Below are positions 45,955-53,409 of a stretch of 64,000 nt of DNA, piece after piece. The first letter of the stretch is position 1, and every line of letters begins with the position of its first letter. A model generated the notes under the pieces. That model was not told the origin of the DNA. It saw only the letters and a list, made by a program, of their open reading frames with translations, and ran no database searches. Source of the stretch: Verrucomicrobiota bacterium (GTDB lineage Bacteria; Verrucomicrobiota; Verrucomicrobiia; Opitutales; Puniceicoccaceae); assembly GCA_038744685.1 (NCBI GenBank), contig JBCDMB010000014.1, forward strand, positions 1 through 64,000, in the 5' to 3' direction. Made by a program: the position numbers and the translations under genes.

Positions 45955-46560
45955 CTAGCAAAAGCGCGAGTAGCGTCCTCCTGGCCTGTAGTTATAGGCG
46001 ACGGAGGCATCCCGCTCCCTGAGCTTTTTGGCTGGAATTCCACCGACTAGAGCGTAGGCGGAGACGTCTTTGGTGACCACGCTACCAGCGGCCACCACTG
46101 CGTACTTGCCAACACTTACACTGGGTAAAATGATCGCTCTTGGTCCTATCCAAACATAGTCACCGATTATCACTTTGTCGCCCTTGAGAGCAAAGTTTGC
46201 TGTGTTGTAATCATGAGATAGGGACCAGATCATGACGTCGCTGCTTATGTTAACATTCTCACCTATTTCAAGGCCACTGCGAGCGTCTAGGACGCAGCCG
46301 TGTCCGATTGATGTGCCATCCGCAATGCTCAATTTAGAGGGGGCCCTAACTTCTAGGCCGGCGTACATAGCAACAGATTTACCAACGAACGCACCCTTTC
46401 TTCTCAGGACGAATTTTCGGAATCGATGTGAGGGGAACTGGAGCAACGCTTTGAGGGAAAAGAAAGACAATCCCTGATAAGTGCGAGAAGATCTTATCTG
46501 TTGGGGCTTGTCATATTTGACCCAGTTTATTAGCCTGATGAGGTTTCGTTTCATCAGCAA
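45955..46560 (-). CDS. Hexapeptide-repeat acyltransferase
   Basis: 201 residues. Rungs: VGKSVAMYAGLEVRAPSKLS, IADGTSIGHGCVLDARSGLE, IGENVNISSDVMIWSLSHDY (catalytic His), VWIGPRAIILPSVSVGKYAV, VAAGSVVTKDVSAYALVGGI and PAKKLRERD. Highly similar in layout to the gene at 30235-30774. Acetylates or otherwise acylates a sugar. A dead relative of the same fold lies directly upstream (46564-47112), so one of the two probably replaced the other. Confidence 0.9.
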   Translation of the reverse strand: MLMKRNLIRLINWVKYDKPQQIRSSRTYQGLSFFSLKALLQFPSHRFRKFVLRRKGAFVGKSVAMYAGLEVRAPSKLSIADGTSIGHGCVLDARSGLEIGENVNISSDVMIWSLSHDYNTANFALKGDKVIIGDYVWIGPRAIILPSVSVGKYAVVAAGSVVTKDVSAYALVGGIPAKKLRERDASVAYNYRPGGRYSRFC

Positions 46561-46563
46561 CCG

Positions 46564-47112
46564 TTAAGGTAAGGCCTTCCACTCGACAATCTGTCGTGTG
46601 ACGCGGGCAAGATTTCCACTGATTAGGCAACTAGAATTATCAAAACTTCTAGTCATGACCGAGCCCGCAGCAACGCCGCTATTTTGTGGAAAGTGCGCAC
46701 CTTTTAGATTGATGCAGTTTGCACTAAATCAAGAATAATCACCAACGTGCAAAAGAGAAGTGTTTGTTGCACGGGAATCTGGATCGATGGTGTGCAAATC
46801 TGTATTTCCTAAGGTGCAGTCGAAACTGATCGCCGCGCTTTAACTGATCGAGATATGCGTTTTGCATACAATTTTGTTCTCGAATGTGTGAAGGCAACTC
46901 GAAGATGAAGTTCACCATCGTCCATGATGTTCGAGTCCATAACCAGAAACGATCTCGTTATGTCCTTCAATGATGACTCTTCCTCTGATCCAAAACATCG
47001 TTCGAGTGTCAGCATGAGGAAAGTTGACGAACGACTTGCTGACTTTTAGACGGCCGGAACCTGTGACTAGCTTTATGCCGACCAGCTTTACGTGTTTTTC
47101 CTTCTCAATCAT
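46564..47112 (-). pseudogene. Degenerate hexapeptide-repeat acyltransferase
   Basis: Three readable blocks occur in different frames: GSGRLKVSKSFVNFPHADTR, then WIRGRVIIEGHNEIVSGYGL near the start; NTDLHTIDPDSRATN in the middle; INLKGAHFPQNSGVAAGSVM and ISGNLARVTRQIVEWKAL at the end. They are separated by frameshifts and stop codons. The order and motifs (HTIDPD, GDYS, GVAAGSVMT) are those of colanic-acid/WcaB-like acetyltransferases. It fills the 582-base gap between the genes at 45955-46560 and 47143-47961. Confidence 0.82.
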
Positions 47113-47142
47113 ACGTGACGTGGATCGTATAGTGGTTCGTGC

Positions 47143-47961
47143 TTACTTTCGCTTGGCCTGATCTAAGGCCTGATCGAAGGAGATTCGCGGGAAGATCCTG
47201 CATTTTCCTTTTTCAGTCGCATCGTAGATGGCTCTTCCGGACCTTCTGAAATAAAAATCTGCCATGCGATAACCCAATTCAGAGCCTTCCAGATCCGGCA
47301 ACTGCCAATTCATGCCTTTGAAATAATTTGGATCGAAATGGTTCGGGTCGTCGTTTTCCATTTTCTGGAGTTCGTTAGTATTTCCTTGGGCCTTAAAGTT
47401 ATGATCCATGCCTAGGATGAAGACATTCTGAAATCCGAAATAAAAAGCCATCTGAAGCGCGACGTAAGTAACGGTATAGGATTCATTGAATCGGTCATTC
47501 AAGCCTGTCGCAAATGCGGGGATGGTTCTTTCGGCAAAGAGAAGGTGGATATTTTTCGGGAGGGAGAACCTGCCAGACTTGAAATCATCTCTAAAGACAC
47601 GTGATGTGCTGTGATGCGAAAGAAAAGTCGGCCAAGGCGTTTCCCGAAAACGGTCGAATCCCTGCTCAATGACATGTCGATTCACCGCTACTTGGAAGGT
47701 TAGATCTAGGTTTCTCTTGTCCGTTAGCAGGTAAATCTTGTTGAGGCCAATGATGTGGTAATTTCTAAGGTGCTCAGTATCTATGTCATTGAGCGAGGGG
47801 CCGTTGCAGAGAAGGAATGCGTCTTCGCCCTCATATTTTCCGGTAAAAGTGTCCGTCCAATAGGCGAAGTGCTTTTTCCAGTAAGCGTAAGTCTCTACGT
47901 TAGGTTTTCGGCGTTCGATCTCCCAGTCTATTCGCTTCTTTACTTTCTCGGCGAATTTCAT
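47143..47961 (-). CDS. DUF115/MptE-like putative glycosyltransferase
   Basis: About 272 residues from ATG 47961. An ATG 87 bases upstream is in frame, but the chosen start overlaps the CMP-synthetase stop in an ATGA and begins at MKFAEKVKKRIDWEIERR. Motifs: AFLLCNGPSLNDIDTEHLRN, YHIIGLNKIYLL, NVFILGMDHNFKAQGNT: the GPSLN site and a strand with GMDH as in the DUF115 (6-hydroxymethylpterin-kinase MptE-like / Maf-type) fold. Relatives transfer CMP-activated nonulosonic acids. As the last gene of the four-gene operon it may be the transferase for the CMP sugar made upstream. Confidence 0.8.
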   Translation of the reverse strand: MKFAEKVKKRIDWEIERRKPNVETYAYWKKHFAYWTDTFTGKYEGEDAFLLCNGPSLNDIDTEHLRNYHIIGLNKIYLLTDKRNLDLTFQVAVNRHVIEQGFDRFRETPWPTFLSHHSTSRVFRDDFKSGRFSLPKNIHLLFAERTIPAFATGLNDRFNESYTVTYVALQMAFYFGFQNVFILGMDHNFKAQGNTNELQKMENDDPNHFDPNYFKGMNWQLPDLEGSELGYRMADFYFRRSGRAIYDATEKGKCRIFPRISFDQALDQAKRK

Positions 47962-48692
47962 CGTGCGACTCTCTTTTGACGCACTGAATGATCCTGGTAG
48001 GATAACGCAACGTAATGGGAGAGGGCGATGATTTCGGCAAGATGCCACCCTGTAGCATCATCAATATCAGCAGATTCGAGATGCGGGGTCTCAAACATTT
48101 GAGGTCTAGCCCCGATTCGAGCACCCGTCTCCGCAAAGCTACCACGATTAAAAATATAGAGATTGGAGTTTTCCTCATACCAAGGCTCTAAGTCCTGAGT
48201 GCGAACTAGATTATCGGGATCATGATTCACTGGACTACCATCTTCGCGGTAGAACCGGGTCTGATATCGGTTCACTGAAAACAAACTGTCGAATCCATCT
48301 TTCCGACTCTGCAGATAAGATTCGTAAGCGGCCTGTATCGTGGCCGCTCTAAGCAAAGGATTTGTCGTATGCGTCATCAGATAGGTTGCCGAGCGAATAG
48401 CATCCAAATCGTCAGCCAATACTCTATTCATACTAACCATGTCCCCGCAAATCTCTGGCTTACGATCTCGTATAAGAACACGTTTAGAATCAGTGAGTCC
48501 GTTCTCTGCGAGTATCTCACGGGCATCTGTATTGATAACGACGAGATCGATTTCTTCGATCTCCAGCAAAGTGTCGAGTATCCAACGAAACAGAGGGCGA
48601 CCCGCGAAATTACGAAAATTCTTCCCTTTGACACGGTCGCTGTTTGCTTTCATCGGAAGCAAAGCGATTAGGCTGTGCGACTCTTGGGTCAT
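47958..48692 (-). CDS. CMP-keto-acid-sugar synthetase (acylneuraminate cytidylyltransferase family)
   Basis: 244 residues. ALLPMKANSDRVKGKNFRNF carries the 'pa(R/K).gS.r...KN' CTP-binding loop, and later segments are YLMTHTTNPLLRAATIQAAY, SLFSVNRYQTRFY and ESADIDDATGWHLAEII, the Mg-binding end. Family members make CMP-Neu5Ac, CMP-Kdo or related activated acids from CTP. It begins with an ATG overlapping the aldolase stop by four bases and overlaps the DUF115 gene likewise, so all three are translated together. The exact sugar acid cannot be read from the sequence. Confidence 0.88.
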   Translation of the reverse strand: MTQESHSLIALLPMKANSDRVKGKNFRNFAGRPLFRWILDTLLEIEEIDLVVINTDAREILAENGLTDSKRVLIRDRKPEICGDMVSMNRVLADDLDAIRSATYLMTHTTNPLLRAATIQAAYESYLQSRKDGFDSLFSVNRYQTRFYREDGSPVNHDPDNLVRTQDLEPWYEENSNLYIFNRGSFAETGARIGARPQMFETPHLESADIDDATGWHLAEIIALSHYVALSYQDHSVRQKRVAR

Positions 48693-49465
48693 CGGTTTAG
48701 TTCATTTCTTATGGTTGCCAAGCCGTCTTGACAGGCTGTTGTGAGCATCGTGATGTCCAGACTGTATGCTATAAAGCGATAACCGTCATGGTAGCAAGCA
48801 ACCGCTTGTTCCGGTGCTGGCGCAACAACATGAAGACCCGGCACTATTTTGTGTCGCTCGCATGCATTAAGAATTTCATCGCGCGACCTGATGTATTCAG
48901 GGTGTTCGAACTGCCCTGTGAGGCCCATAGACGCAGTTAGATCATATGGGCCAATGAACGCAGCATCAACGCCATCTACAGACAAGATAGCATCAATATT
49001 CCGAACCGCTTCGATGTGCTCAACTTGCACCGCCAATAGAATATCATCATTGGCGCGTTCACATTCATCGGCCAAACGCATCCCGTAGTCATTAGCACGA
49101 CAAAAACCAACCCCTCTCAGGCCGACAGGTGGATACTTCGTAGCCTGCACGAGCAATTCAGCCTCTTCTTTGGTCCGAACCAGAGGCGCAACGACACCTT
49201 GCGCACCAGCATCAAGGTAACGTTTGACCAAAGCATAGTCGACTCCATGTAATCGTACAATAGCGGCACAATTTCGGTTCCCCGAACGGATTGCTTGAAA
49301 GAGTTGCTGCGTCTGAGGCAGGTCGACTGCAGAATGCTCTGCATCTACGCAGATAAAGTCAAAACCGGCGGCAGCCATAAGCTCGGCCACAATCGGGCTA
49401 CCGGAATTCAGCCAACTACCGATAGAAGGTTTACCTTGGAGAAGGCTCTCTCTTAAATTAACCAT
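48689..49465 (-). CDS. HpcH/HpaI-family aldolase (pyruvate/2-keto-3-deoxy acid type)
   Basis: 258 residues. TIM-barrel class II aldolase: GSWLNSGSPIVAELMAAAGF, DFICVDAEHSAVDLPQTQQL (metal-binding E), YLDAGAQGVVAPLVRTKEEA, AVQVEHIEAVRNIDAILSVD, AAFIGPYDLTASMGLTGQFE (D ligand). The family catalyses reversible aldol cleavage or condensation of 2-keto-3-deoxy acids with pyruvate. Its position between a YhcH-like protein and a CMP-sugar synthetase suggests use in the synthetic direction, building a 3-deoxy-2-ulosonic acid. Starts on a TAATG overlap with the YhcH-like gene. Confidence 0.88.
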   Translation of the reverse strand: MVNLRESLLQGKPSIGSWLNSGSPIVAELMAAAGFDFICVDAEHSAVDLPQTQQLFQAIRSGNRNCAAIVRLHGVDYALVKRYLDAGAQGVVAPLVRTKEEAELLVQATKYPPVGLRGVGFCRANDYGMRLADECERANDDILLAVQVEHIEAVRNIDAILSVDGVDAAFIGPYDLTASMGLTGQFEHPEYIRSRDEILNACERHKIVPGLHVVAPAPEQAVACYHDGYRFIAYSLDITMLTTACQDGLATIRNELNR

Positions 49466-49932
49466 TACATGAGAAGATCGATATCGATTTTCACAACTAA
49501 TTTTCGGACTAGTGCGGGTTCTTGAAGCGCGACCTTAGGACGTTGTGCGTCTCCCGGAAAGAAGACGCAAAAACCACTTCCGCTTATTCGCAAAGTGCAG
49601 GCTTCAGCTGCTGGCTTATGAAAGAGTAAATCCTTATCCGGATCATATTCGCCATCACTTTCCAGATTAGCTCGATTCAGATAGTCGATACCTTCCAGAC
49701 CCTCTATTGTGTATTGTAAATCAACGTTGCGTCGATGGCTCTCAAAACGGCAGTTTTCACGAGGCTCAGTGGCATACGACTGGACGTTCACAAACATTGA
49801 TTCCCCTCTCAATTGATGGATGCCGAGTTCGGAATTCGCAGCGTGCTTCTTGATCCAACCGAAGGCCTCCGCCCATATCGGCCCAAGCAAAAAAGACTCA
49901 AGTTGGGGATCGTTTAGATTTGCTGGAATCAT
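49465..49932 (-). CDS. YhcH/YjgK/YiaL-family protein (sugar-acid anomerase-like)
   Basis: 155 residues. Beta-jelly-roll family with GIHQLRGESMFVNVQSYATE, ENCRFESHRRNVDLQYTIEG (E-x-H-x8-DLQY metal-binding motif), EGIDYLNRA and GSGFCVFFPGDAQRPKVALQ, PALVRKLVVKIDI. The E..H..D and later HP/PGD-H ligands form a metal site (the last 'PGDAQRP' has Gln where many have His). The E. coli YhcH homologue, NanQ, acts on sialic acid anomers. First gene of the four-gene operon; probably prepares the keto-acid sugar. Its promoter must lie in the 86 bases before 50019. Confidence 0.85.
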   Translation of the reverse strand: MIPANLNDPQLESFLLGPIWAEAFGWIKKHAANSELGIHQLRGESMFVNVQSYATEPRENCRFESHRRNVDLQYTIEGLEGIDYLNRANLESDGEYDPDKDLLFHKPAAEACTLRISGSGFCVFFPGDAQRPKVALQEPALVRKLVVKIDIDLLM

Positions 49933-50018: not shown

Positions 50019-50777
50019 TTAAAAGAAGTATTTATAATATGCATCGAGCATTCGTATTTTAAACTTAAGGTAAGGATTTACTTTAAGTATATTTTTTAAC
50101 TGCTCTGTTGAGGTTCTGAATTTTCCTCTTGTGCTGTGGTCGCGGAGTAGTCTTTTTTCAAGATCGGATAGATGGCTATTTTCCCACCTTACTCTTAAGA
50201 ACTGTGCAATTTTGAGATTCTCTTCAAAGAAGTTATTGAGGTAATTTTCGTAGTTAGTTTTATAAATTTTTAAGCCATCGATTTTTTCCAGGTGCTTCAA
50301 GAACGAAAGTTCTCTTAAGAAGTGTTTGACAATCTCAGAAAAACTCATACCCCAATACCAGTGAGCTCTCTCCTGGTAGTTTATGAATGATTGTATTGAA
50401 GACGAGGGCTTTCTGGTCATCACGACTACAGTTAAGTTAACTTCTGTTGTTAGAAGATTTAGAATAGATGCTTTTGAGAAGTTTATAAAATGGGGATGAA
50501 TCTTTTCTAACTCGTATATTGGATTGCATTTTTCTTTTAGTAGAATGTTTTCCATGTATCCATACTGATTAGGATTGACTTCTAAATGATCAGATTCAAA
50601 ACCATTCTCTTTGGTGAGATCTTTTGGGTATCTTCTCCTAGCGTTATCTGCACCCAGTAATCTAAAGTTTTTCCAACTATGCGAGACTGTGATAGACTGA
50701 TTTGAGCGAAGGACATCGAAGAGAAGGGTGCTTCCACTTCTTTGTGTAGTGACTAGTAAAAGTAATTTAGTTTTCAC
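50019..50777 (-). CDS. Sulfotransferase, A+T-rich
   Basis: 252 residues. LLLLVTTQRSGSTLLFDVLR (about 5-24) is the PAPS loop, and LTVVVMTRKPSSSIQSFINY (about 114-133) the 3'-phosphate site with R-x7-S. The remainder is helical and Lys/Asn-rich; the gene is markedly A+T-richer than the neighbours, pointing to recent horizontal entry. Third sulfotransferase in the locus. It lies between the sugar-acid operon and the ABC exporter gene (45 bases from 50822). Target sugar unknown. Confidence 0.82.
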   Translation of the reverse strand: MKTKLLLLVTTQRSGSTLLFDVLRSNQSITVSHSWKNFRLLGADNARRRYPKDLTKENGFESDHLEVNPNQYGYMENILLKEKCNPIYELEKIHPHFINFSKASILNLLTTEVNLTVVVMTRKPSSSIQSFINYQERAHWYWGMSFSEIVKHFLRELSFLKHLEKIDGLKIYKTNYENYLNNFFEENLKIAQFLRVRWENSHLSDLEKRLLRDHSTRGKFRTSTEQLKNILKVNPYLKFKIRMLDAYYKYFF

Positions 50778-50821: not shown

Positions 50822-52114
50822 TCAATCATTTCGGAACTCTTCGATCTTTGCTTTCATTATTGGTGTGTAGGGTGCTCCGTGCCAGCCTTCCCCTTCAATT
50901 TGTAACGTCATAGCTTTGTGTATCATTGAAATGTGATATTTGTATAGTTCATCTTCGAAAAGATTCAAATTAATCCAATAACACCCTGGACATAAGTTGA
51001 TGTGTTCAAAAGAAAGTGATAGATTAATGTCCGAGTCAGGAATTTTTTCGTTGATTCTCGTTCGTGATTGCGCCAAAACTTCACCTCTTTGATTTTCAAA
51101 TCCAACTTGAATGGCTTTTATTTGAAATGAACTCCGGGAAGTAATCGAGAACTCAAGATTGAGAGGATTATCGAACTGTGTAGTTACTGAATTCGCGCAT
51201 GATATACTTAGCAATCCTGAGGCCTTTTTGGTTTCTTTTTTCGGTTCCATATCGAGTATGGAATTCGTATAAAGATCTAGTATTTGTTTTGTTTCGCCTG
51301 TTTCTTTTATTCTCCCAGCCTCTAACCATATTGCCCTTTCGCATATCCGGGAAACTTGGTTCATTTGATGAGAAACGAAAATAACGGCGGAGTCTTTTAG
51401 TAGCCGGGAGACTCTCTCGAGGGATTTGGCCCTGAAGGCTGCATCTCCGACGGCAAGCACTTCATCAAGAATGAGAACATCAGGTTTAGCCATTATTGCG
51501 ATGGAGAAGCCAAGCCTTATTTGCATGCCTGAGCTGTAACTCTGCACTGGGGTATCTATAAATTCTTCGATCTCAGCAAAGGAAACAATTTCATCGAAAT
51601 TTGATTTGAGCTCATTTTTAGAAATCCCAAGGACTGAACCGTTAACGTAAATGTTCTCTCTACCCGTCAGCACCGGATTGAAACCCGCTCCGAGAGCAAT
51701 CAGTGCCCCGACTCGTCCTCTCATGGTGATTTTTCCAAAATCCGGCTTGATCAGCCCATTGAGCATTTTTAGCAGGGTGGTTTTCCCTGCTCCGTTGTGA
51801 CCGATCAGGCCGAGGCACTCTCCTCTGCGGAGCTCGAAGGAAATCCCCTGATTAGCCCAGAATTCGCTTTGCCGAAGGGGACGGGGCTCGGGTGACCTGG
51901 TGGGGCTTGTTTGGACTCCTCCCCGTTCCTCCGCAGAAGTCCCCGGCTTCCTTCCCCAAGCGAAGAGGTCTCTTGTCGTGTCTTTGAGGCCATACCAGAG
52001 GGACTTTCTTAGATCCCGGCAGAAAATCTTGCCGATATTTTCGACTTTGACGAGGACTTCGTCGGTCGACTTCGCCGATGAGTTTAAGTGGTCAGTTGAA
52101 GTTGAGGATTTCAA
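50822..52114 (-). CDS. wzt: ABC transporter ATP-binding protein for polysaccharide export
   Basis: 430 residues. Walker A GHNGAGKT (about 105-112), signature SYSSGMQ (about 193-199), Walker B DVLILDEVLAVGD (about 211-223), H-loop VSHQMNQ. After residue 280 a C-terminal about 140-residue jelly-roll-like domain (FSITSRSSFQIKAIQVGFEN; ELYKYHISMIHKAMTL) corresponds to the carbohydrate-recognition domain of long Wzt proteins. Residues about 54-85 are a low-complexity insert (AEERGGVQTSPTRSPEPRPL) between the first strand and Walker A. Works with the permease at 52558-53409 to move lipid-linked polysaccharide across the inner membrane. Confidence 0.92.
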   Translation of the reverse strand: MKSSTSTDHLNSSAKSTDEVLVKVENIGKIFCRDLRKSLWYGLKDTTRDLFAWGRKPGTSAEERGGVQTSPTRSPEPRPLRQSEFWANQGISFELRRGECLGLIGHNGAGKTTLLKMLNGLIKPDFGKITMRGRVGALIALGAGFNPVLTGRENIYVNGSVLGISKNELKSNFDEIVSFAEIEEFIDTPVQSYSSGMQIRLGFSIAIMAKPDVLILDEVLAVGDAAFRAKSLERVSRLLKDSAVIFVSHQMNQVSRICERAIWLEAGRIKETGETKQILDLYTNSILDMEPKKETKKASGLLSISCANSVTTQFDNPLNLEFSITSRSSFQIKAIQVGFENQRGEVLAQSRTRINEKIPDSDINLSLSFEHINLCPGCYWINLNLFEDELYKYHISMIHKAMTLQIEGEGWHGAPYTPIMKAKIEEFRND

Positions 52115-52557
52115 AGCGCTTTAGTGATCTCGAGGAATGACTGTCAGACTTCAGATGAAACCGGAGTTTTAACCTCTAGCGACTTGCGGAGACAAGGAGT
52201 ATGCGTGCAGTTTCGCGAAAGTTATTAATCTACTACTTTGCGATTCGGATATTAAAATAGGAGAATTACTGTCCTATCATTTTTCGCGTGCTATTTTCGC
52301 CTACCGACCCTTGAGCATAGCAAAGAAAATATTTAAACTCCAGTGCTCTATACCTTTGGCAACGTTTGACAGAACTTAAAGAATTGAACGCGTGGGATGG
52401 TTTCGGAATCCAAGGATTTCTAGAACTTCCTCGACTCAAAACTTCGACCGACAGATCTGTAGATCTCTGCGAAAGCTTTAAATTTTCGAAACTGGAATCT
52501 TGTGCTGCTACTTCAACATCAACTTTTCTCTTAGACAAAATGCCTCCCCGGCAGCCT
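52115..52557. other. 443-base gap between exporter genes; possible four-helix-bundle remnant
   Basis: On the minus strand 52440-52510 reads SSFENLKLSQRSTDLSVEVL, similar to the start of four-helix-bundle (S23/23S IVP) proteins (FEDLEVWRRS...), but the frame breaks soon after. I see no other gene. Low-confidence remnant; the rest shows no structure I recognise. Confidence 0.35.
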
Positions 52558-53409
52558 CTACATCCCCATCCTTTCGATAAGGCGGGGCATTGAAATGTGC
52601 AGGACAGTCCAAGCGATGAGAAGCAGAACGAAAGCGGTGAGGGTGATGAGGACACTTTCGGAAAGATAAAGAAGCGGTGATCCCGTAAGCAGCTCCCGAC
52701 CCGTCTCCAACAGGTAAGTGGTCGGATTTAATTTGTGGACAATGGCTAAGATTCCTGCGGTGGCGATCGGATAAACGACCGGAGCCGCATACATGAGGAA
52801 TTGTCCCAGAACCTGCAGGCCACGCCCAATGTCGGTGTAAAGTAACCCTATGGGAGCCAAGAGGGTGCCAAAGGATGTGCCAAGAAGGACGATAGCCAGA
52901 TACGCTACGGGAAAGAAAACAGCTGTCCATCCCGGTATCAGACCTACAAAAGCAAAGACTGGAATCAAAAGGGTTAAACGAACAGCAGAAATGACAGAAG
53001 TTTCCATGATCCCGGCAATCACTGGTGCACTGCGGTGAAAGTTGATCTTCGTAAGCATGGACTTTGAGGTCTCCAATGCTTGTATTGGTTTGAGCATACC
53101 ATCCAAGAAGGCTTGCCAGAGGAGAGTGCCAATCATGACAAAGGCAGGGTACGGGATTCCAGTTTCGGCCACACGAACCACGCCGGAACGATTCAGGAAG
53201 AACCAAACCAGAGTGGTAGCAATCGGTGGGAATAACAACCATGTGTAACCGAGAGCGCTTTGTCTGAACTGTGCTTTGATGTTTCGCTTGAAGAGCGCGA
53301 AGGCCAGCTCGCGGGACCCTAACAATTCATCTTTTAATTCTGTAAAAAGGCGACGTTTGTCCCTAAACAGCGAATCGGGACTATAGGTGGTTACTGGGAG
53401 GTTGGGCAT
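52558..53409 (-). CDS. wzm: ABC transporter permease for polysaccharide export
   Basis: 283 residues. Cytoplasmic N-terminus with the amphipathic segment FALFKRNIKAQFRQSALGYT (about 38-57), then six membrane helices (TWLLFPPIATTLVWFFL; FVMIGTLLWQAFLDGML; VRLTLLIPVFAFVGLI; VFFPVAYLAIVLLGTSFGTL; VLGQFLMYAAPVVYPIA; VLITLTAFVLLLIAWTVL), the ABC-2 export topology of Wzm. An octamer array starts six bases before its ATG. It is on the same strand as Wzt but separated by 443 bases, so co-transcription is likely though not tight. Confidence 0.92.
   Translation of the reverse strand: MPNLPVTTYSPDSLFRDKRRLFTELKDELLGSRELAFALFKRNIKAQFRQSALGYTWLLFPPIATTLVWFFLNRSGVVRVAETGIPYPAFVMIGTLLWQAFLDGMLKPIQALETSKSMLTKINFHRSAPVIAGIMETSVISAVRLTLLIPVFAFVGLIPGWTAVFFPVAYLAIVLLGTSFGTLLAPIGLLYTDIGRGLQVLGQFLMYAAPVVYPIATAGILAIVHKLNPTTYLLETGRELLTGSPLLYLSESVLITLTAFVLLLIAWTVLHISMPRLIERMGM

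Follow-up and report, generated by a model that had tools for sequence, protein, structure and literature searches.

How might a bacterium make a CMP-activated sugar acid for its surface when the genes for activation and transfer stand beside a pyruvate aldolase? To our knowledge, every known pathway to a CMP-activated ulosonic acid has its carbon skeleton built by a PEP-dependent enzyme, a NeuB- or KdsA-type synthase. The question is raised by four minus-strand frames (49932-47143) in the 64,000-nucleotide stretch of Verrucomicrobiota DNA analysed here (the window), which encode a YhcH-like protein, an HpcH/HpaI aldolase, a CMP-sugar synthetase and a DUF115 protein (Table 1). An earlier note made from the letters had described them as a run chained by overlaps of 1, 4 and 4 bases, and the frames, strands and overlaps are as it claimed: base 49465 is common to the YhcH stop and the aldolase start, the aldolase and synthetase genes share 48689-48692, and the synthetase gene overlaps the ATG start of the DUF115 gene at 47958-47961. 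The DUF115 frame has an alternative, longer GTG start at 48048, but it is the ATG at 47961 that fits the overlap. The family assignments hold as well, all four proteins matching Pfam above the cut-off, the DUF115 protein barely so (34.8 against 34.6 bits).

As a whole, the window is an extensive region of polysaccharide genes, among them those for glycosyltransferases, sulfotransferases and an ABC exporter, the permease of which (52558-53409) is a weak match to the galactan export protein Wzm. It also encodes an exosortase-like protein and a tyrosine autokinase (TIGR04178 and TIGR01007, both above cut-off). The sulfotransferase gene upstream of the four genes belongs to this polysaccharide context and may be connected to their sugar. 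On the minus strand, between the DUF115 gene and an acetyltransferase gene (45955-46560), a frame with three stops (46561-47142) appears by eye to be a decayed hexapeptide acetyltransferase gene.

Table 1. Features of the putative operon and its upstream neighbours, with the basis for each assignment.
Feature	Coordinates	Strand	Basis
YhcH/YjgK/YiaL (DUF386) protein, 155 aa; predicted anomerase ('openase') for 3-deoxy-2-ulosonic acid	49465..49932	-	Pfam PF04074
HpcH/HpaI class II pyruvate aldolase, 258 aa; predicted 3-deoxy-2-ulosonic acid synthesis	48689..49465	-	Pfam, conserved residues, conserved run
CMP-sugar (ulosonic acid) synthetase, 244 aa	47958..48692	-	Pfam CTP_transf_3, nearest structures
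MptE-like (DUF115, PF01973) protein, 272 aa; predicted CMP-ulosonic-acid glycosyltransferase, Maf/GT42 fold	47143..47961	-	AlphaFold2 fold match
Sulfotransferase, upstream of the four genes, same strand; polysaccharide context	50019..50777	-	Pfam Sulfotransfer_3, 30.6 bits
Polysaccharide ABC exporter (ATPase 50822-52114 and permease 52558-53409); context	50822..53409	-	ABC_tran, 84.9 bits

The best reading of these genes, to which we give a probability of roughly 0.7, is a pathway in which an aldolase makes the 3-deoxy-2-ulosonic acid that is then activated with CMP. The aldolase would condense pyruvate with a small, unphosphorylated aldehyde to give this acid, thereby doing the work of NeuB or KdsA with no phosphatase required; the YhcH-like protein would speed the interchange between open chain and ring, making the ring form available to the synthetase, which would convert the ulosonic acid to its CMP-sugar; and the DUF115 protein would move the sugar from the CMP-donor to a glycan. 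The end product would be an unusual, sialic-acid-like sugar within a probably sulfated surface polysaccharide. We infer the direction of the aldolase reaction, the aldehyde, the role of YhcH, the transfer step and the polysaccharide. That an aldolase route feeds the synthetase has good support from three sides: the two genes are kept adjacent, six genomes with the pair lack NeuB, and the DUF115 protein has a sialyltransferase-like fold.

The aldolase itself is a clear member of its family (Pfam HpcH_HpaI, 128.8 bits, cut-off 25). When aligned with HpaI (4b5s), the positions of the catalytic His and Arg and of the metal-binding Glu and Asp are invariant, and the Glu-His, Arg, QxE and GPxDL positions of HpaI are kept. 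It falls below the curated equivalog cut-offs for HpaI (186.5 versus 368.8 bits), GarL (165.2 versus 406.75 bits) and RhmA (147.8 versus 441 bits), and it is the only HpcH/HpaI protein in its own genome. The loci of its nearest named relatives lie mostly in Opitutales and other Verrucomicrobiota, and the window was accordingly assigned to this phylum. Aldolases of 58-79% identity fall into a single clade (support 99/98) in which members from operons and from catabolic loci are mixed; the tree neither separates the two uses cleanly nor shows which of them came first. The catabolic loci carry YhcH together with sugar-acid-type permease or tripartite-transporter-like genes, and in two of them (L003 and L013) a galactonate dehydratase lies beside the aldolase (696 and 699 bits, cut-off 311). 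That the aldolase might act only on aromatic-pathway substrates, a case raised by the earlier note, does not look to be so and was rejected, its nearest kin sitting in sugar-acid loci. A homologue of galactonate dehydratase also occurs in the genome under study, on contig 1 (373.5 bits). Judged by eye, the genes around it are oxidoreductase-type sugar-acid genes and include no aldolase, so the dehydratase does not clearly need the window aldolase.

The synthetase matches Pfam CTP_transf_3 (68.7 bits, cut-off 22.6) and is placed in the NeuA/PseF/KdsB superfamily, with CMP-Neu5Ac synthetases as its nearest solved structures. It falls below the equivalog cut-offs for PseF (73.6 versus 205.7 bits) and for KdsB-type enzymes (23.9 versus 193 bits), and a search of viral and phage collections found no relatives of it.

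A search for a conserved neighbourhood, which the earlier note had proposed, found that the aldolase and synthetase genes travel together. Among 373 genomes of the same order, 14 (the window genome included) carry the synthetase at a threshold of at least 60% identity, the relatives being 60-74% identical, and in ten of the 14 the regions that were read have aldolase and synthetase together in a single contiguous run. These ten genomes (G000, G001, G272, G308, G406, G410, G421, G432, G441 and G455) span six genera and five families, five of them belonging to one genus; in the other four the aldolase is not beside the synthetase. The window order of YhcH, aldolase and synthetase is found in G272, where a DUF115 gene lies nearby, separated by a few genes, and a second cytidylyltransferase-like gene lies between aldolase and synthetase in G406. 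YhcH directly follows the synthetase in G450, where there is no aldolase, and what appears by eye to be a damaged YhcH gene, with no Pfam match, follows it in G425. In a set of 388 genomes of the phylum, again at 60% identity or more, the aldolase was found in seven (one a partial match), the synthetase in six and both in four, and in all four the two genes are adjacent. Such co-occurrence is above expectation (Fisher p about 6e-7, relatedness ignored), and with this value and the adjacency in four of four genomes, chance was rejected as an explanation. At a further locus (L007), an aldolase of the same subfamily (68% identity) is followed by a KdsB-like synthetase that passes the subfamily cut-offs, showing that the aldolase pairs with two unlike CMP-synthetases.

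Two further observations were made at loci of this kind. At one (L099:9632-11756), the aldolase, a second cytidylyltransferase-like gene (27% identical to the window synthetase) and the synthetase follow one another with 4-base overlaps at each junction. At three others (L100, L103 and L104), CysD-, CysN- and CysC-like genes for sulfate activation were recognized by eye upstream of the pair, which suggests a sulfated polymer.

The aldolase-synthetase pairing recurs in two phyla, Verrucomicrobiota and, in the comparison made here, Alphaproteobacteria. A sample of 385 alphaproteobacterial genomes, the class of a Devosia locus, contained the synthetase in six. A divergent aldolase (36-37%) directly adjoins the synthetase in two genomes (G793 and G1074), and G850 has an aldolase next to a second synthetase-like gene. 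On an Acuticoccus plasmid (L096), the aldolase, the synthetase and a phosphoglycerate-dehydrogenase-like gene stand in a row, and the same three kinds of gene are found together in two genomes of the window's own phylum (G271 and G321). Elsewhere the synthetase is accompanied by a 2-hydroxyacid dehydrogenase or a related oxidoreductase, often together with an SDR, with no aldolase (G258, G361, G163, G927, G1031 and G973, and the Rhodobacterales plasmids L094 and L095); the loci noted for this partner set are L040, L042, L044, L094, L095, L189, L190 and L193. A 2-hydroxyacid dehydrogenase takes the place of the aldolase in two of the four aldolase-less genomes of the order and in several alphaproteobacterial clusters. 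The synthetase is thus the constant part and the aldolase belongs to one of at least two partner sets, so that an aldolase product may not be the substrate of every member of the synthetase family.

The transfer step depends on the DUF115 protein, which matches Pfam MptE-like (PF01973, formerly DUF115), as do all 11 members of its cluster. A sequence search against the PDB returned nothing meaningful, and the fold comparison alone was informative. The AlphaFold2 model (34 sequences; pLDDT 88.7) has its best fold match in Maf (5mu5; Z 14.2, 3.8 Å over 202 residues), and it also matches CstII (1ro8; Z 11.5, 3.9 Å over 187 residues), Cst-I (Z 11.1) and human sialyltransferases. Maf, a protein similar to Cst-II with CMP-Neu5Ac and CMP-Kdo as donors, has PF01973 as its central domain (PMC11339370). 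The protein could instead be an MptE-type pyrophosphokinase or another nucleotide-binding protein, with a different gene of the cluster performing the transfer, as its Pfam name, a fold match to the MptE-type HPPK of M. jannaschii (8sd5; Z 11.9) and the fact that a DUF115 gene is not the direct neighbour of the synthetase in every relative would allow; the higher score of Maf, the further matches to sialyltransferases and the recurrence of DUF115 genes near the synthetase in several clusters make this unlikely. Transfer from a CMP-ulosonic acid is the likeliest job for the protein judging from the model, a fold alone being no proof. Relatives of the DUF115 protein are encoded on 76 contigs of the viral collection (L105-L180), which may be of viral or host origin.

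It is also conceivable that the synthetase is fed from elsewhere in the cell, by KdsA (with Kdo) or by NeuB, and that the aldolase is unrelated to it. No PEP-dependent synthase is linked to the synthetase within the operon, and the earlier note had raised supply from a distant NeuB or KdsA as a case against its reading. As to presence the case is a real one, the genome having one KdsA on contig 11, KdsB as a separate gene on contig 7 and one short NeuB on contig 21, and the synthetase itself falling within the NeuA/PseF/KdsB superfamily; as to feeding it has evidence against it. The NeuB gene overlaps an SpsF-type synthetase gene and has a GT2-cytidylyltransferase fusion in the same cluster, and so has candidate partners of its own, and KdsA and KdsB are the usual Kdo genes. 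Furthermore, six of the ten genomes with the pair (G001, G308, G410, G421, G432 and G441, each with a completeness of 90% or more) have no NeuB, which therefore cannot feed the synthetase there. Outside supply would, in addition, leave the adjacency of aldolase and synthetase in two phyla unexplained, and we consider it improbable; in the relatives, Kdo made through KdsA may be a source. The NeuB region of contig 21 (L196:5394-11024) is a second surface-sugar cluster, with the SpsF-type synthetase, the short NeuB, a 2-hydroxyacid dehydrogenase and the GT2-cytidylyltransferase fusion.

The role of the YhcH-like protein is less straightforward. It matches Pfam DUF386/YhcH (PF04074) at 111.8 bits (cut-off 26.5) and falls below the NCBIfam equivalog cut-off for N-acetylneuraminate anomerase (88.5 versus 160 bits). 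Of four probable metal ligands, deduced from conservation in the family and not from a ligand-bound structure, it keeps E64, H66 and D71, whereas Gln130 replaces the last His of the DAHRP motif; with one probable ligand lost, the activity of the window protein is in doubt. Relatives have His at this position, the G272 protein among them, and the YhcH copy at L003 has Pro. 3-Deoxy-2-ulosonic acids of this kind form ring hemiketals in solution (PMC11199699), which would give an anomerase work to do. In E. coli, the anomerase YhcH assists an aldolase by supplying the open form (PMC8141875); in a biosynthetic operon the protein would act in the opposite direction. The partnership of YhcH with a pyruvate aldolase in sialic acid breakdown (PMC8141875), and the closest aldolase kin in catabolic loci with sugar-acid transporters, could also be read as salvage or turnover. 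The synthetase would then activate an ulosonic acid obtained by scavenging, and the aldolase and YhcH would break down any surplus, like NanA and YhcH in the case of sialic acid. This is very improbable, as no uptake transporter or downstream catabolic gene was identified among the surrounding genes read, the neighbours being glycosyltransferase, sulfotransferase and exporter genes, and as galactonate dehydratase falls below cut-off in three pair-bearing genomes (G001, G272 and G308), which argues against a catabolic role there.

If the aldolase route is accepted, the identity of the sugar follows less firmly. AbHpaI of A. baumannii forms only KDGal from pyruvate and D-glyceraldehyde, with a turnover higher in synthesis than in cleavage (PMC8560999). 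Because the characterized enzyme makes this product only, and two catabolic relatives of the window aldolase lie beside a galactonate dehydratase, our leading guess by analogy, held at somewhat less than even odds, would be the six-carbon KDGal (2-keto-3-deoxy-D-galactonate; 3-deoxy-D-threo-hex-2-ulosonic acid); a longer aldehyde in place of D-glyceraldehyde is possible. The earlier note had predicted a non-standard 3-deoxy-2-ulosonic acid made by the aldolase, and the adjacency, the absence of NeuB and the DUF115 fold carry that prediction as far as the route and not as far as the exact sugar. Still more tentatively, the operon may make one of an undescribed class of short, six-carbon CMP-activated 3-deoxy-2-ulosonic acids, occurring in both Verrucomicrobiota and Alphaproteobacteria and produced by a pyruvate aldolase that sugar-acid catabolism also uses; in a related branch, a 2-hydroxyacid dehydrogenase would stand in for the aldolase or join it. 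The open-access literature yielded no description of an HpcH/HpaI aldolase paired with a cytidylyltransferase, nor did it confirm a six-carbon 3-deoxy-ulosonic acid in any natural polysaccharide, each being weak evidence of absence. A 4-deoxy-2-hexulosonic acid is named for E. coli K3 in the title of a reference cited in PMC10433991.

Should the route be correct, a pyruvate aldolase would provide a second, reversible entry into CMP-activated ulosonic surface sugars, sugars of unfamiliar size would be predicted in environmental polysaccharides, and a function would be given to a recurrent, unnamed branch of the 'acylneuraminate cytidylyltransferase family' and to YhcH and DUF115 proteins.

Among known systems, the NeuB/NeuA and PseI/PseF pathways share with the window operon CMP activation by a CTP_transf_3 enzyme, and Maf/GT42-fold transfer is known for their donors; they differ in building the skeleton with a PEP-dependent NeuB-type synthase, whereas the operon has a pyruvate aldolase and six of its relatives have no NeuB. 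The KdsA/KdsC/KdsB pathway to Kdo likewise ends in a CMP-3-deoxy-2-ulosonic acid, the product predicted here, but the operon contains neither a PEP synthase nor a phosphatase and its synthetase lies far below the KdsB cut-offs. In the E. coli nan operon (NanA, YhcH/NanQ), a YhcH-family protein likewise works alongside a pyruvate aldolase whose substrate is a 2-ulosonic acid; that system is catabolic and its aldolase is of class I, in contrast to the class II HpcH/HpaI enzyme linked here to a CMP-synthetase. The HpaI, GarL and RhmA aldolases have the same fold and active-site residues, and HpaI makes KDGal in vitro, yet the known members are catabolic, whilst the window aldolase sits in a polysaccharide cluster and scores below their curated cut-offs. 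Finally, the flagellin glycosyltransferase Maf shares the PF01973 domain, the fold (as modelled) and, as predicted for the DUF115 protein, CMP-ulosonic acid donors; the DUF115 protein differs in being a stand-alone domain, and its acceptor is presumably a glycan.
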